Positions 6,122-51,029 of a DNA stretch of 53,023 nt are shown one piece after another. A program made the position numbers and the translations under genes. This stretch comes from a virus, in the IMG/VR virus record IMGVR_UViG_3300025674_000057, positions 1 to 53,023 of that record, one strand, 5' to 3'. Every line of letters begins with the position of its first letter. The first letter of the stretch is position 1. The notes under the pieces are model-generated. The model did not search any database. It was not told where the DNA came from and saw only the letters and a program-made list of their open reading frames with translations.

Positions 6122-8833
6122 TTAGAATGTTCCTCCGTCTATAGTATCAGTCCAAGTTGGTTTGTTAGTGTAAACCGTAGTTACAGTATCAGGAACTATG
6201 GAAATATTAGTTCCATTTACTTTCAAATCGTTAGTTGTATCAAAGGTTCCTTGTACACCTATAATAGTTATAGTAGTTCCAGAACTTGTTGTTTTAACAA
6301 CACCATAAGCACTTGAGTTATTGAGTTGAGTTATTTGATCGCCTGCAGTTACAGAAGTTGAAGATGGTAAATCTAATGTGACTTCGGTTACAGCAGTAAG
6401 AATTTGAGTAGAAGTTCTAGTATTAGATGCCGTAGATGGATTGTTAGTAGATCTCTGTAATCCAGCATCATCAAAGAATACGACGCCATTGGTATCAAAA
6501 TCACCAGACTGATAGTAAATACCTTTAACGTCTAAGAATCCTTTTGTTCCACTTACAACACTATTTGTTATAGATGCATCTGGAATATAAGTCCATCTTC
6601 TACTACCATCTGCATGTGTTCCATTTGTTAGTGTGGTAACAGAGCTGTCTGCTATGGAACTATCATCAAATCCGAAGAATCCTACCTTGTTATTGGAAAT
6701 TCCTGAACTTGTATTGTAATCGAAGGAAACACCACGATCTGTACTAGTATCAAATGCGTGTGTTACTGTTAATTGTGTTGTTGTAACAATACCTGCAGAC
6801 GTTACTCCATCAATACGAACAGTATTTGTTCCAGAATCAAAGGAGTGAACAGTTGTTGTTCCAGCACCAGGTAAAGAAGCACTACCAGAAATTAAATCTC
6901 CAGTATTGATACCTACAAGAGAATCTACTACAATTTCAGAACTACCAGTTCCAACTGTAGTCATTACAGTTCTTACACTGCTTACGTCACCAAGATTTAA
7001 AATGGCTTCGTTGACACTTACAGAACTTGAGTTGACTGTGGTTGTAGTTCCATCAACTTGCAGGTCACCTTTGATGATGACTGTTCCTTCATTACTTAAT
7101 CCATCGGGGAATGGATCAATGAATAATTGATTTCCTCCACCAGATTGGGTGAAGATCATGTTGGACTTAATTCCAACATTATCAATTACAACACCACCTG
7201 TATTGGTAAACTCACCTACATGAGCAACGTCACCAGTGATATCAATGGTGTCTGAAACTGAATTTCCTAATGTAGTGTTACCATTAACGATTAAATCATT
7301 AGTAATCGTTACATTACCTGAGGTAAATGCAACTGCCCCAGCAACGTTCAGTGCTCCACCAACATTGAGGGTCTTAGCAATTCCAACTCCACCATCTACA
7401 ACTAATGCTCCACTAGTTGTATCAGATGAGTCTTGAGTTGAAGTAAGTTTAACCCGATCATTTCTAATTGTGGTGATACCTGTTGTAGCACCAATTACCA
7501 GATTTACTCCAGCACCAAGAACGTTTGCCTCAGTTACTGTGGAATTGAGTAAATTAAATGATGTTTGATTTGAAGTTAAATCTCCACCATCAACATTCAA
7601 ATCACCATCTAAATCGACGGTAGCATTTCTAATAGTTGCAACACCAGTCGTTGCACCCATTACGATATTGGTAGCTGCTCCAAAAGCATCTACCTTCGTC
7701 GCTGTAGTATTAAACAGCTCTTGTGTCGTTTGAGATCCAACTACTGTTGGATTATTGATAGTTAATGTTCCAGATGTAGCACCAATATCAATAGATGTTG
7801 CAGCACCAAAAGCATTAACAGTAGTTGCTACAGTATCGTATAGATTTTGGGTAGCATTTACACCAACTACCGTATTCGGTCTTAGTGTTAATGTTCCTGT
7901 TGTTGTACCAAGAGCAATTGTAGAACCATCGCCCAGAACATTAGCGGTAGTTACATTAACATCAAATAAATTTAAATTGGCGTTTGTACTATTAACATCA
8001 CCACCTTCAACATTAAGATCTCCACCAATGTGGACAGTCTTTCCTATTCCAACACCACCAGCAACTACTAGAGCACCAGTTGTTGTGCTTGTTGAGTCAG
8101 TTGTATCACTAATTGTGGTGATACCAGTTAGTCCAAGGTTACCACCAACAAATAAATTCTCCTCAATACCAACACCACCTTCAATAACCAAAGCACCAGT
8201 ATCTTTACTGGTGGATCCAGTGGTATCGGAAATGGTTATCGCAACACCACTAGCAAAATTCCAATCGGCACCTTCTACCTGAATTTTATCCGATGTTGCC
8301 TCATCATAATAAATTCTGGCGTCATTATCTGTACCAAATTGGAAGTGAATGTCGTCAGCAATTCTTATATCTGCTGTTGCTCCTGCTTCACCTCTTTCAA
8401 AGAAGATCGCATCCTTATCAGTATCATAAGACAGTCTTATATCATCACTAGTACCAAACTGGAGTTCATCGTTATCTAAAAACTGAACTCTACCAGTCCC
8501 ATTTGGAGTGATGGTAATATTTCCATCAGTATCAGTAGAAGTTAGAGCATTACCATCTAACCTTAAATTATCTACATTCCATACATCAATTTTGGAGCTA
8601 GAATCAACAATAACAGCAGAAGATGCTGTTAAAGTACCATGAACGTGATCTAGAAGATCGGTATAATATTTACCACCAATTTCTATCGGATTATTCGATG
8701 AATTACCGACAAAAAATCTTTCTCCCTTATTTCCCTGTGATCCAGATCCAATTGTGAGGGCAAGTTCACCGTAATTCAGGGTGGATGGGGCAGTCGTACC
8801 CGTAGATCTTTTGACCCTAATAATGCTTGCCAT
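6122..8833 (-). CDS. Repeat-rich fibre-like structural protein
   Basis: 903 residues, rich in Thr, Ser, Gly, Val and Asn. The N-terminal part begins MASIIRVKRSTGTTAPSTLN then YGELALTIG, a start typical of cyanophage fibre or structural proteins that probably dock to the baseplate or neck. Two repeat types follow. The first is three copies of a unit like TGALVVAGGVGIGKT (about residues 215-480). The second is four copies of a unit of about 36 residues, such as TVNAFGAATSIDIGATSGTL. Such units commonly form beta-helical or trimeric shafts. The C-terminus ends WTDTIDGGTF, similar to the NLDINGGSF end of the next protein. A host-recognition or fibre role is inference; the exact T4 counterpart is unclear. 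Confidence 0.75.
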   Translation of the reverse strand: MASIIRVKRSTGTTAPSTLNYGELALTIGSGSQGNKGERFFVGNSSNNPIEIGGKYYTDLLDHVHGTLTASSAVIVDSSSKIDVWNVDNLRLDGNALTSTDTDGNITITPNGTGRVQFLDNDELQFGTSDDIRLSYDTDKDAIFFERGEAGATADIRIADDIHFQFGTDNDARIYYDEATSDKIQVEGADWNFASGVAITISDTTGSTSKDTGALVIEGGVGIEENLFVGGNLGLTGITTISDTTDSTSTTTGALVVAGGVGIGKTVHIGGDLNVEGGDVNSTNANLNLFDVNVTTANVLGDGSTIALGTTTGTLTLRPNTVVGVNATQNLYDTVATTVNAFGAATSIDIGATSGTLTINNPTVVGSQTTQELFNTTATKVDAFGAATNIVMGATTGVATIRNATVDLDGDLNVDGGDLTSNQTSFNLLNSTVTEANVLGAGVNLVIGATTGITTIRNDRVKLTSTQDSSDTTSGALVVDGGVGIAKTLNVGGALNVAGAVAFTSGNVTITNDLIVNGNTTLGNSVSDTIDITGDVAHVGEFTNTGGVVIDNVGIKSNMIFTQSGGGNQLFIDPFPDGLSNEGTVIIKGDLQVDGTTTTVNSSSVSVNEAILNLGDVSSVRTVMTTVGTGSSEIVVDSLVGINTGDLISGSASLPGAGTTTVHSFDSGTNTVRIDGVTSAGIVTTTQLTVTHAFDTSTDRGVSFDYNTSSGISNNKVGFFGFDDSSIADSSVTTLTNGTHADGSRRWTYIPDASITNSVVSGTKGFLDVKGIYYQSGDFDTNGVVFFDDAGLQRSTNNPSTASNTRTSTQILTAVTEVTLDLPSSTSVTAGDQITQLNNSSAYGVVKTTSSGTTITIIGVQGTFDTTNDLKVNGTNISIVPDTVTTVYTNKPTWTDTIDGGTF

Positions 8834-35326: not shown

Positions 35327-35355
35327 ATCATACAATATTATCTATACAATGTCAA
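35327..35355 (-). promoter_or_regulatory. Sigma70-type promoter of the glycosyltransferase gene
   Basis: Minus strand TTGACA (35350-35355), 17-base spacer, TATGAT (35327-35332): the -35 is a perfect consensus and the -10 is 5 of 6. The -35 hexamer overlaps the stop codon (TGA) of the small gene upstream. The strength suggests early use by unmodified host polymerase. Confidence 0.75.
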
Positions 35356-35528
35356 TCTACTTCCCTTTCAGACATGATAATCTCACTACCCTCTAGGGAA
35401 ATATTGATCTCTGTATCTTCATACCAGGACAGATCATTCGCCATCCATTCAGGTATTATAACATAATATTCGCCAGTTACTGGATCGACCTGTAGAGGTT
35501 GAAAATTTTCTCCGGAATTTTTTCTCAT
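35352..35528 (-). CDS. AbrB/MazE-like small protein, 58 residues
   Basis: Starts MRKNSGENFQPLQVDPVTGE then YYVIIPEWMANDLSWYEDTE and INISLEGSEIIM. The pattern (beta strand, Val/Ile-Pro turn, short helix, acidic turn, two strands) fits the swapped-hairpin AbrB fold used by MazE/AbrB/SpoVT DNA-binding proteins. Proteins of this type recur in T4-like cyanophages. In bacteria such proteins bind DNA as dimers and often regulate their own operon. A role as regulator of the adjacent GT promoter, with its 14-bp palindrome, is an attractive but untested inference. Confidence 0.75.
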   Translation of the reverse strand: MRKNSGENFQPLQVDPVTGEYYVIIPEWMANDLSWYEDTEINISLEGSEIIMSEREVD

Positions 35529-41796: not shown

Positions 41797-41825
41797 ATTC
41801 TCAATAAGACTTAGTTATTGAGAAT
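41797..41825. repeat. 11-bp inverted repeat ATTCTCAATAA / TTATTGAGAAT
   Basis: Perfect arms with a seven-base loop, the longest member of the GATTCTCAA hairpin family (also at 39515-39546, 40368-40399 and 42691-42745). The gap 41677-41873 holds this, the promoter for 41676 and the weak hairpin CCAGT/ACTGG (41853-41868 approx.). Confidence 0.6.
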
Positions 41826-41873
41826 CAATAAGATCTTTTAAATGAGAATGGGTCCAGTCTCCGAACTGGCACA

Positions 41874-42038
41874 TTAAAAGATATCGGAGTAATCCTTGAT
41901 GGTAATATTAATATCCTCGTCTCCTTCTAGCTCCAGAAGATCTTTCCAGTCAAGATCTTCTAGTTCTAGATCATCATAACACATGATGTCTAGTGTTACA
42001 CGTACTAGGCGTTTTTGTGCGACCATGTGTGCAGGCAT
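41874..42038 (-). CDS. Acidic microprotein, 54 residues
   Basis: ATG 42038 opens MPAHMVAQKRLVRVTLDIMC, a short basic segment, followed by the acidic YDDLELEDLDWKDLLELEGD and then EDINITIKDYSDIF. About 16 Asp/Glu fall in the last 35 residues. I recall cyanophage proteins with RVTLD...YDDLEL.DL.W.DLL. A TTGCGT-17-TATAAT promoter ends 24 bases before the start, inside the last codons of the other acidic gene. Possible DNA-mimic or regulator-binding protein; function unknown. Confidence 0.75.
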   Translation of the reverse strand: MPAHMVAQKRLVRVTLDIMCYDDLELEDLDWKDLLELEGDEDINITIKDYSDIF

Positions 42039-42061: not shown

Positions 42062-42090
42062 ATTATATCATGCATAATGCTTATACGCAA
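42062..42090 (-). promoter_or_regulatory. Sigma70-type promoter of the 54-residue acidic gene
   Basis: Minus strand TTGCGT (42085-42090), 17 bases, TATAAT (42062-42067, perfect). Overlaps the end of the gene at 42068-42253. Confidence 0.75.
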
Positions 42091-42253
42091 GCGCATCATA
42101 ATCTAGTGCATCTCGTGTGTAGTCGTCATCGTCATATGAATCTAGTGCTTGTGCATCTAGTGCATATGATTGCATATATGTCTCATACATCTCGTCGAGA
42201 TCGTATGTGTAATCTTGTGTGAATGAGTAGTCGAGATCGTAGTCGTCGTACAT
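42068..42253 (-). CDS. Acidic Asp/Tyr-rich microprotein, 61 residues
   Basis: MYDDYDLDYSFTQDYTYDLD and then EMYETYMQSYALDAQALDSY, ending LDYDALAYKHYA. There are 16 Asp, two Glu and 13 Tyr, but only one Lys, one Arg and one His. It is extremely acidic, the composition of a DNA-mimic or of a scaffold with repeated Asp-Tyr. The DNA of its first half contains one palindrome copy (42190-42200), so part of the composition is dictated by the operator repeat. The reading frame is intact, ending at the next promoter. Its own promoters lie in the array upstream. A role against host DNA-binding enzymes is conceivable but unproven. Confidence 0.6.
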   Translation of the reverse strand: MYDDYDLDYSFTQDYTYDLDEMYETYMQSYALDAQALDSYDDDDYTRDALDYDALAYKHYA

Positions 42254-42286
42254 AATTCTCGTCGAGATTGTGTATGATGCTTTATG

Positions 42287-42315
42287 ATTATACTGTATTC
42301 TCGTCGAGATCGCAA
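42287..42315 (-). promoter_or_regulatory. Promoter with palindrome in its spacer (array promoter 1)
   Basis: Minus strand TTGCGA (42310-42315) then 17 bases, TATAAT (42287-42292, perfect). The spacer is the palindrome copy 42299-42309 plus six bases, the copy starting directly after the -35. The ATG of the acidic gene is 33 bases downstream, with a further palindrome (42257-42267) between. Confidence 0.75.
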
Positions 42316-42412
42316 GTCCCTATAATGCCTGATTCTCGTCGAGATGCATAATAATATATATGTATTCTCGTCTAGATTTGTGTTATTATGCACATAATGC
42401 TCGTCGAGATTC

Positions 42413-42441
42413 ATTATAGCATAATCTCGCCTAGATGTCTA
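42413..42441 (-). promoter_or_regulatory. Promoter with palindrome in its spacer (array promoter 2)
   Basis: Minus strand TAGACA (42436-42441), 17 bases, TATAAT (42413-42418, perfect). The spacer again consists of a palindrome copy (42425-42435) starting directly after the -35 and six more bases, exactly the layout of promoter 1. Confidence 0.7.
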
Positions 42442-42448
42442 GTCTAGA

Positions 42449-42543
42449 TTTTATAAGACTGTGTGGGTCTCAGAGTTTTTCGCCGCCCCGTGACTTGACG
42501 AACCGCGCTCCTTATGCTACGCTCGCTAAACTTGCATCAGGGA
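42449..42543. other. Spacer between palindrome array and tandem repeat
   Basis: No open frame worth calling. It holds a -10-like TATAAA (minus, about 42450) and a GC-rich stretch (42480-42540), with GCTACGCTCGC near 42516. Not tRNA-like on inspection. Confidence 0.5.
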
Positions 42544-42660
42544 GGCACCTTTACATAAGATTATCGGCACCTTTACATAAGATTATCGGCACCTTTACAT
42601 AAGATTATCGGCACCTTTACATAAGATTTCTATGAGATTATCGGCACCTTTACATAAGAT
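42544..42660. repeat. Tandem repeat, 22-bp unit, five copies
   Basis: Unit starts GGCACCTTTACATAAGATT and ends ATC. Copies begin at 42544, 42566, 42588, 42610 and 42643; the first three are identical. Copy 4 has 11 extra bases (TCTATGAGATT-like) and copy 5 degenerates into further ACATAAGA/TATGAGAT pieces to about 42682. The 22-bp period is close to two helical turns. It has no coding potential. A binding-site array or replication/recombination hotspot is possible. Confidence 0.85.
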
Positions 42661-42823
42661 TTACATAAGACTTCTATGAGATAAAACCATCTATTCTCAA
42701 CAATAATACCTTATTGATTCTCAATTAATCTAAACTATTGAGAACTGTATAAACAACAACTTTATATTTAAAAAGGTATTTTTTTAATTAAAACAAGGTT
42801 AAAACACCCAGATTAAGGCATTT
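42661..42823. other. AT-rich gap with GATTCTCAA-type inverted repeats
   Basis: Contains ATTCTCAA (about 42693), GATTCTCAAT (about 42717) and ATTGAGAA (about 42737), members of the same short-palindrome family as 39515, 40368 and 41797, then a poly-A/T stretch. No gene seen. Confidence 0.55.
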
Positions 42824-50141: not shown

Positions 50142-50325
50142 TTGATTCCTCACATTTGCGGTAAAATACCCCATTTACATAGCAGGATTTACCAGGTTCA
50201 TAATATTTTACCACAGGTGGTGATGTTTGTCTAACATTACATAATTCACCTTGTTTTTCAACAAAGTTTCCCATACACAGAGATGCAACAAAAGGAGCAA
50301 GAAGTTTAAGAGTGTACATCAGCAT
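50128..50325 (-). CDS. Small protein with N-terminal hydrophobic segment, 65 residues
   Basis: MLMYTLKLLAPFVASLCMGN is a signal-like hydrophobic stretch with a Cys; the tail (KSCYVNGVFYRKCEESNGSI) has paired Cys that could form a disulphide in the periplasm. Overlaps both neighbours. Possibly exported; function unknown. Confidence 0.65.
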   Translation of the reverse strand: MLMYTLKLLAPFVASLCMGNFVEKQGELCNVRQTSPPVVKYYEPGKSCYVNGVFYRKCEESNGSI

Positions 50326-51029
50326 TCATCCATTCGAAGAGGTTGAACAATCTTACGTAGTTCATAAGATCCATCACCACGATCAATCCACTCTATACTA
50401 TCACCTTCCTTAAGATTTGCTGCTTCTAGAAGATCATTGGGAAAGGTAACAAAGTATTCAGTTTCCATAGTATCGCCGTTTTCTACTTCTTCAACAGAAA
50501 GACGCCACTTCTTTACTTCGTCTTTTTCAGTAAGTGGAGTCCACTCATAACCACCTGCAGACTTGATTGCCTCATACTCAGCATCAAGTTGTGCTCGCTT
50601 GTTATAGTATTCTGCCTCACGCAGATTGTACTCACGGGACTTCTCTTTGTCCTCAGCAGCATCACACATAGCGTTCATTTCTTCTTCAGTGTACTGCTTG
50701 TGCTCTTCTGGATAATAGGTTTCTTCCCAGAAATCAACCCAATCTTTTTGGGTTGCAGAAGAAACACCAGGTGATGCATCAATATCATCAAGAGATGTAT
50801 CAATTTCAAAGGAACGATGACCTTTCAGAAGGGAAAGAATTTCTACACTCTTAGTGAAATACTTCTTGTGATACGTTACACTCTCATTCACAACATTTAC
50901 GATAGTGTCGTAGATGTCTTGTGGTGTAAGATCCTCACAATTCACAGCATCATTCACCCAGTTATCAAGTTGTTCAAGAGAATACTTCTTGTAGGAAAAG
51001 TCACTACTGCGGGGATCGTTCGAGTTCAT
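50319..51029 (-). CDS. AbrB-like C-terminal domain protein, 236 residues
   Basis: The first 165 residues are acidic and helical (NWVNDAVNCEDLTPQDIYDT and EYEAIKSAGG). The C-terminal part (about residues 185-230), TEYFVTFPNDLLEAANLKEG followed by DSIEWIDRGDGSYELRKI, shows the beta-strand, Pro-turn, helix, Gly-Asp and beta-hairpin pattern of the AbrB/MazE swapped-hairpin domain. That domain binds DNA as a dimer in bacteria. The helical part could be the partner or effector module. The organisation resembles AbrB-tailed proteins of other T4-like phages. Function in infection unknown. Confidence 0.75.
   Translation of the reverse strand: MNSNDPRSSDFSYKKYSLEQLDNWVNDAVNCEDLTPQDIYDTIVNVVNESVTYHKKYFTKSVEILSLLKGHRSFEIDTSLDDIDASPGVSSATQKDWVDFWEETYYPEEHKQYTEEEMNAMCDAAEDKEKSREYNLREAEYYNKRAQLDAEYEAIKSAGGYEWTPLTEKDEVKKWRLSVEEVENGDTMETEYFVTFPNDLLEAANLKEGDSIEWIDRGDGSYELRKIVQPLRMDEC

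Follow-up and report, generated by a model that had tools for sequence, protein, structure and literature searches.

A conserved palindromic operator-like array in phase with the promoters of a small acidic peptide gene in T4-like cyanophages

In phages of the lambda and P22 type, the OR and OL control regions each hold several palindromic operators that overlap the −35 and −10 elements. The MotA box of T4 is a non-palindromic activator site standing in place of the −35, and a GIY-YIG enzyme of T4 represses its own late promoter. Autorepression at a T4 late promoter has been described for I-TevI (PMC2988022), while the repressor of Cluster A (L5-type) mycobacteriophages works with stoperators, many copies of a short site at early promoters and elsewhere (PMC9283540). 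For cyanophages, a late-promoter motif, NATAAATA, has been reported in S-PM2 (PMC2984593). Here we describe an array of short palindromes in viruses infecting ocean and lake cyanobacteria, which looks like a tightly conserved and so far undescribed off-switch. The open-access cyanophage review and genome papers mention no such operator, and searching the open-access literature for the motif string returned four papers, all judged unrelated by title only.

Palindrome copies and promoters in the window

The window, an IMG/VR virus record of 53,023 bp analysed over its whole length, comes from a T4-like cyanophage (Kyanoviridae); its baseplate gene matched T4-like cyanophages, with S-SKS1 as the top isolate (64%). 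An earlier sequence-only reading had claimed eight copies of a palindrome, and all eight, of the form TCTCGACGAGA, were located on the minus strand between 42190 and 42448 (starts at 42190, 42257, 42299, 42334, 42366, 42399, 42425, and 42438), an orientation that agrees with that of the genes around them. The exact sequence (TCTCGTCGAGA on the plus strand, equal to TCTCGACGAGA on the gene strand) is found in four copies, and the remaining four read TCTCGTCTAGA, GCTCGTCGAGA, TCTCGCCTAGA, and TCTAGTCTAGA; alignment of 296 copies from IMG/VR loci with close exact pairs gave the extended consensus AA-TCTCGACGAGA-TT. The claimed spacing of 26 to 42 bp did not hold, as the start-to-start distances are 67, 42, 35, 32, 33, 26, and 13 bp and hence not uniform. 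Spacing peaked at 23-24 and 32 bp without a clean 10.5-bp periodicity, so that we do not claim sites on one helical face. The pattern TCTNGNCNAGA had 8 matches in the 53-kb window, 7 of them inside 259 bp, compared to a mean of 0.71 and a maximum of 3 in 100 shuffles, and chance was thereby ruled out as the origin of the array. A simple tandem repeat was also ruled out, since the sole TRF array of the window is a different one, a 22-bp tandem repeat at 42544-42628.

Two sigma70-type promoters are read on the minus strand. The proximal one (42287-42315) consists of TTGCGA (42315-42310), a 17-bp spacer and TATAAT (42292-42287), and has a homologue in relatives; the distal one (42413-42441) has TAGACA (42441-42436), a 17-bp spacer and TATAAT (42418-42413), with TGC before the −10. 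Both match the earlier description, also in having a palindrome that opens directly past the −35 and stops 6 bp short of the −10. These are the copies at 42299-42309 and 42425-42435 (TCTAGGCGAGA), the first 11 bp of the proximal and distal spacers, respectively. Another copy (42334-42344) is found upstream of the proximal −35, followed by those at 42366-42376 (TCTAGACGAGA), at 42399-42409 (TCTCGACGAGC), just downstream of the distal −10, and at 42438-42448 (TCTAGACTAGA), where both arms are changed and the site overlaps the distal −35. The gap after the copy at 42366-42376 is where relatives hold TATAAATA, a motif like the T4-type late promoter; it is degenerate here, and a clear TATAAATA is absent from the window.

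The proximal promoter precedes a gene for a 61-aa acidic, Y/D-rich peptide of a conserved family (42068-42253, minus strand; MYDDYDLDY...LAYKHYA), whose downstream partner is a second small acidic gene, phrog_12516 (41874-42038, minus strand). The copy that had been noted in the leader of the peptide gene was found at 42257-42267, ending 3 bp ahead of the ATG (42253), and a further one, reading TCTCGACGAGA, lies inside the ORF at 42190-42200, where it codes part of DLDE.

Conservation of the array and of its promoter phase

In IMG/VR, at least 120 stretches had exact copies in pairs 4 to 30 bp apart. A separate search, made by the acidic peptide and not by the array, gave 71 loci with at least 250 bp of upstream sequence. 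Within 350 bp upstream of the peptide gene, at least one palindrome was present in 69 of these 71 loci and at least two in 61, whereas the remainder of the same loci, about 265 kb, contained 26 copies. Promoter phase was counted in 54 non-redundant upstream regions, taking the best promoter of each. The spacer was 17 bp in 52 of them, an intact TTG-type −35 was found in nearly all (TTGACA in 26), and the −10 was TATAAT in 37. The palindrome began 0 bp from the end of the −35 in 35 promoters and at −1 bp in 11, with none in the other 8. These promoters are related by descent, the 54 counting effectively as about 32, and part of the conserved phase is therefore inherited. With weighting for redundancy, the operator columns carried 0.72 bits, compared to 0.44 for the six bases past the operator, 0.49 for the leader, and 0.19 for upstream columns.

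Among 58 non-redundant relatives, 19 copies ended at −3 of the ATG. The motif TATAAATA was present upstream in 30 of the 54 regions; in 25 regions the next operator came 19 bp on, counted from the first base of the motif, and in 13 an operator lay upstream of it, ending 2 bp before the motif. Some arrays have no evident sigma70 promoter, e.g., S-SRM01 90905-90994 and similar ones. The sequence-only reading had taken one copy as compensatorily changed. That copy is indeed altered in both arms, but at arm position 4/8 among 205 sites in relatives we counted 46 single-arm changes and 6 paired ones, so that compensation is not the rule.

A search of other cyanophages for the 11-mer in the same −35/−10 phase, which had been proposed as a check, found it in many, with the layout kept in isolates. 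The array is borne by P-SSM2, P-SSM5, S-SKS1, S-SRM01, and S-T4. A PWM scan detected clusters in S-SRM01 (three), S-SKS1, P-SSM2, and S-T4 (two identical ones, at 2.7 and 174.3 kb), and none in S-PM2, S-SM2, S-CAM7, Sf-CH5, Syn9, or DSL-LC02; shuffled genomes gave neither close pairs nor clusters. P-SSM5 and the single-cell virus AG-345-F15 were matched by BLAST. P-SSM2, with its array at 66000-66170, shows the layout as TTGACA-ATCTCGACTAGATctgg-TATAAT ahead of PSSM2_098, a gene that was not found in papers by our literature search. Alternative spacer palindromes in array-negative isolates reached shuffle-level numbers only. By eye, the phrog_12516 promoter of S-CAM7 (KU686212, about 54920-54955) has a palindrome of another sequence, TATTCTAGG-TTTTT-CCTAGAATA, immediately before the −10, which is perhaps an analogous operator.

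The genes behind the arrays are mostly of one kind. Adjoining ORFs repeatedly code for the small acidic peptide, whose middle part varies (MYDDYDLDY...(DDEYARD)...LAYRHYA), and it accompanies 159 of the 239 arrays with at least three sites. Other arrays in this set precede phrog_1653 (17), the MHNNTREINS family (8), or phrog_12516 directly (7). The second array of S-SRM01 precedes a phrog_1653 gene, and in most phrog_1653 genes the ATG is 2 to 5 bp past the last operator copy. Since the operator also stands before other small genes in some phages, it appears to define a small regulon. The peptide family had no PHROG or Pfam match, tblastn with the peptide gave no phage matches, probably due to the low-complexity filter, and its AlphaFold2 model was uninformative (pLDDT 62.8).

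Copies inside the peptide gene are kept in frame, with DLDE written as GAT CTC GAC GAG 116 times and DLDY as GAT CTC GAC TAT 70 times. In long ORFs of the same loci, CTC makes up 13% of Leu, GAC 26% of Asp, and GAG 33% of Glu codons; against this background the bias indicates that a DNA word is conserved in the gene beyond the protein. Operators running in frame apparently dictate part of the protein sequence. The homologue in array-free Sf-CH5 (36794 onward), read from its sequence, has neither the DLDE repeats nor those codons.

Candidate regulators and surroundings of the cassette

The sequence-only reading had interpreted the layout as that of one regulator blocking several promoters. The operator array on promoters, in the same phase in many cyanophages, bears out the first half of this proposal; a regulator of that kind was not found by gene content or Pfam searches. 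A strict gene-content comparison of genomes returned no candidate, Pfam searches with HTH_3, RHH_1, and MazE gave no consistent match, and genes linked to the arrays were weak leads only. Among these linked genes is an ORF of 100 aa, unannotated and winged-helix-like, next to the third S-SRM01 array (90334-90636, plus strand; 2335-2637 of locus L310), with homologues in 11 loci only. A separate lead is an acidic 58-aa AbrB/MazE-like protein (35352-35528 of the window, minus strand), present in all array-bearing genomes tested, including the window. It also occurs in array-negative Sf-CH5, S-CAM7, and S-PM2, and in ACG-2014f, and was kept as a weak lead; its top Foldseek matches were of the AbrB fold, but with E ≥ 0.095. 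The window additionally codes for a 236-aa protein (50319-51029, minus strand) whose C-terminal part exceeds the Pfam cut-off for a MazE-type domain, and a fuller homologue is found in S-SRM01.

On the bacterial side, paired exact copies were absent from all GTDB r220 records titled cyanobacterial; this is compatible with a regulator encoded by the phage but does not prove one. In 84,980 bacterial genomes the paired site occurred in 30 stretches, none titled Cyanobacteria and none with the peptide, and these matches were taken as chance or unrelated.

Upstream of the array, a divergent promoter free of operators (42495-42523, plus strand; TTGACG-17-TACGCT) is conserved in relatives, with TTGAC-N17-TA...T in 49 of 53 loci compared to 11 of 854 control windows. 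By eye, it was also seen in array-free Sf-CH5 and S-SM2. An ORF lies on its strand in 20 of 48 loci, several with a length typical of nearby GIY-YIG genes, and the remaining loci have no evident gene behind it. Homing endonuclease genes of the GIY-YIG family start near many arrays, 54 of 71 in that family (e.g., 7324-8142 of locus L225), and some are apparently read from the divergent promoter. The zone past this promoter, where the window has its 22-bp tandem repeat, is occupied in relatives by repeats of 10-12 or 21-22 bp whose sequences differ, with autocorrelation peaks at 10-11, 22, and 32 bp and an AT peak near −375. The cassette in the window is flanked by TTATTGAGAA/ATTCTCAAT inverted-repeat elements, one downstream (41797-41849) and its partner upstream (42693-42744). 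In relatives, TTATTGAGAA elements cluster at −400 to −300 and 300 to 500 bp downstream (+300 to +500), and they are mutually exclusive with DnaA boxes, as loci with such boxes never have them. These surroundings resemble a replication origin, but GC skew does not point the same way in all genomes.

A putative repressor and its place among known systems

We consider it fairly probable that the copies of the array are operators to which a DNA-binding protein attaches as a dimer. This putative protein is most likely a repressor, and the best reading is that it closes early and often late promoters together. With a dimer seated in the spacer right past the −35, the host sigma70 RNA polymerase would be kept off, while copies at the start codon, round the late promoter and in the gene could let dimers bind cooperatively, shut the late promoter and hinder elongation. 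The acidic MYDDYDLDY peptide and phrog_12516 would form the small operon under this control. From the sequence we infer that a protein binds, that it comes from the phage, that it represses and does not activate, and at what time it acts. A more far-reaching version, which we regard as rather doubtful, is that one repressor acts simultaneously against the early sigma70 promoter, against elongation and often against a late promoter of the T4 type, that the protein owes its DLDE repeats to operators that extended into its reading frame, and that the operator-free divergent promoter, behind which lie phased repeats and either DnaA boxes or TTATTGAGAA elements, couples transcription control with the start of replication.

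The same palindromes might instead be bound by an activator of the phage that turns these promoters into middle ones and stands in for the missing MotA/AsiA of T4. Cyanomyoviruses are without motA and asiA and their middle mode of expression is unexplained (PMC2984593), and some copies do lie upstream of the −35. However, promoters so close to consensus, with the usual 17 bp between their elements, need no activator. MerR-type spacer activators, by comparison, require 19-20 bp. Copies also abut the −35 and sit in the leader and the gene, where a steric block is expected, which makes activation unlikely. For a role in replication, with the palindromes as initiator-binding iterons or as origin-linked control of transcription, one can point to the adjoining zone, with its AT-rich DNA, repeats phased at about 11 bp, and either TTATTGAGAA inverted repeats or the DnaA boxes of other phages, and to the conserved operator-free divergent promoter nearby. 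Yet the palindromes follow the promoter and gene and not the AT-rich zone, they occur at other genes too, the similar divergent promoter of Sf-CH5 and S-SM2 (seen by eye) comes without an array, and GC-skew extremes do not coincide consistently across genomes; we therefore hold this explanation to be quite unlikely.

That the repressor belongs to the cyanobacterial host, whose state the phage would sense through it, would agree with the failure of gene-content and Pfam searches to find a phage regulator, but we judge it very unlikely given that the search for paired copies found none in cyanobacterial-titled GTDB r220 records. Control at the RNA level, by a short mRNA hairpin bound by a translational repressor such as RegA, seems highly improbable. 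In many relatives a copy near −3 of the ATG does overlap the ribosome site, and RegA (Pfam Translat_reg) was among the conserved proteins scanned, but the arms do not covary, pairing being broken far more often singly than restored in pairs, and there was no Rfam match. Many copies are also upstream of the predicted start site, several of them upstream of any such site, and together with the singly varying arms this argues that the site is read as DNA, as the repressor reading supposes.

The timing of gene expression in T4-like cyanophages without MotA/AsiA is not settled, and the array offers a direct handle on it. Being precisely phased and conserved in cultured P-SSM2, S-SKS1, S-SRM01, and S-T4 as well as in many environmental genomes, it is also usable as bait for the regulator.

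Compared to described systems, the array has the marks of a phage operator system, i.e., multiple symmetric, near-identical sites in fixed phase overlapping promoter elements. Like the stoperators of Cluster A mycobacteriophages (PMC9283540), it consists of many copies of one short site with a proposed block of initiation and elongation; stoperators, however, are asymmetric, dispersed over the genome and bound by an immunity repressor, whereas the sites here are palindromic, clustered at one to three loci, and carried by lytic T4-like phages. As in the OR and OL regions of lambda and P22, several palindromic operators overlap and flank the promoters of a region, but no linked repressor gene or lysogeny module was seen, and here the operators enter coding sequence and, in roughly half of the relatives, lie on either side of a late promoter of the T4 type. 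An early and a late promoter in tandem before a single gene are also described for cyanomyoviruses (PMC2984593). Unlike in T4 MotA-box promoters, no such box replaces the −35, which is intact, and the palindrome stands behind it. GIY-YIG genes are often near the arrays, as in the I-TevI case (PMC2988022), although the arrays mostly serve the acidic peptide, consist of multi-copy palindromes, and also occur without an adjacent endonuclease. Among forms of phage operator control, the array stands out by its putative, undescribed regulator and by the operators inside the gene.
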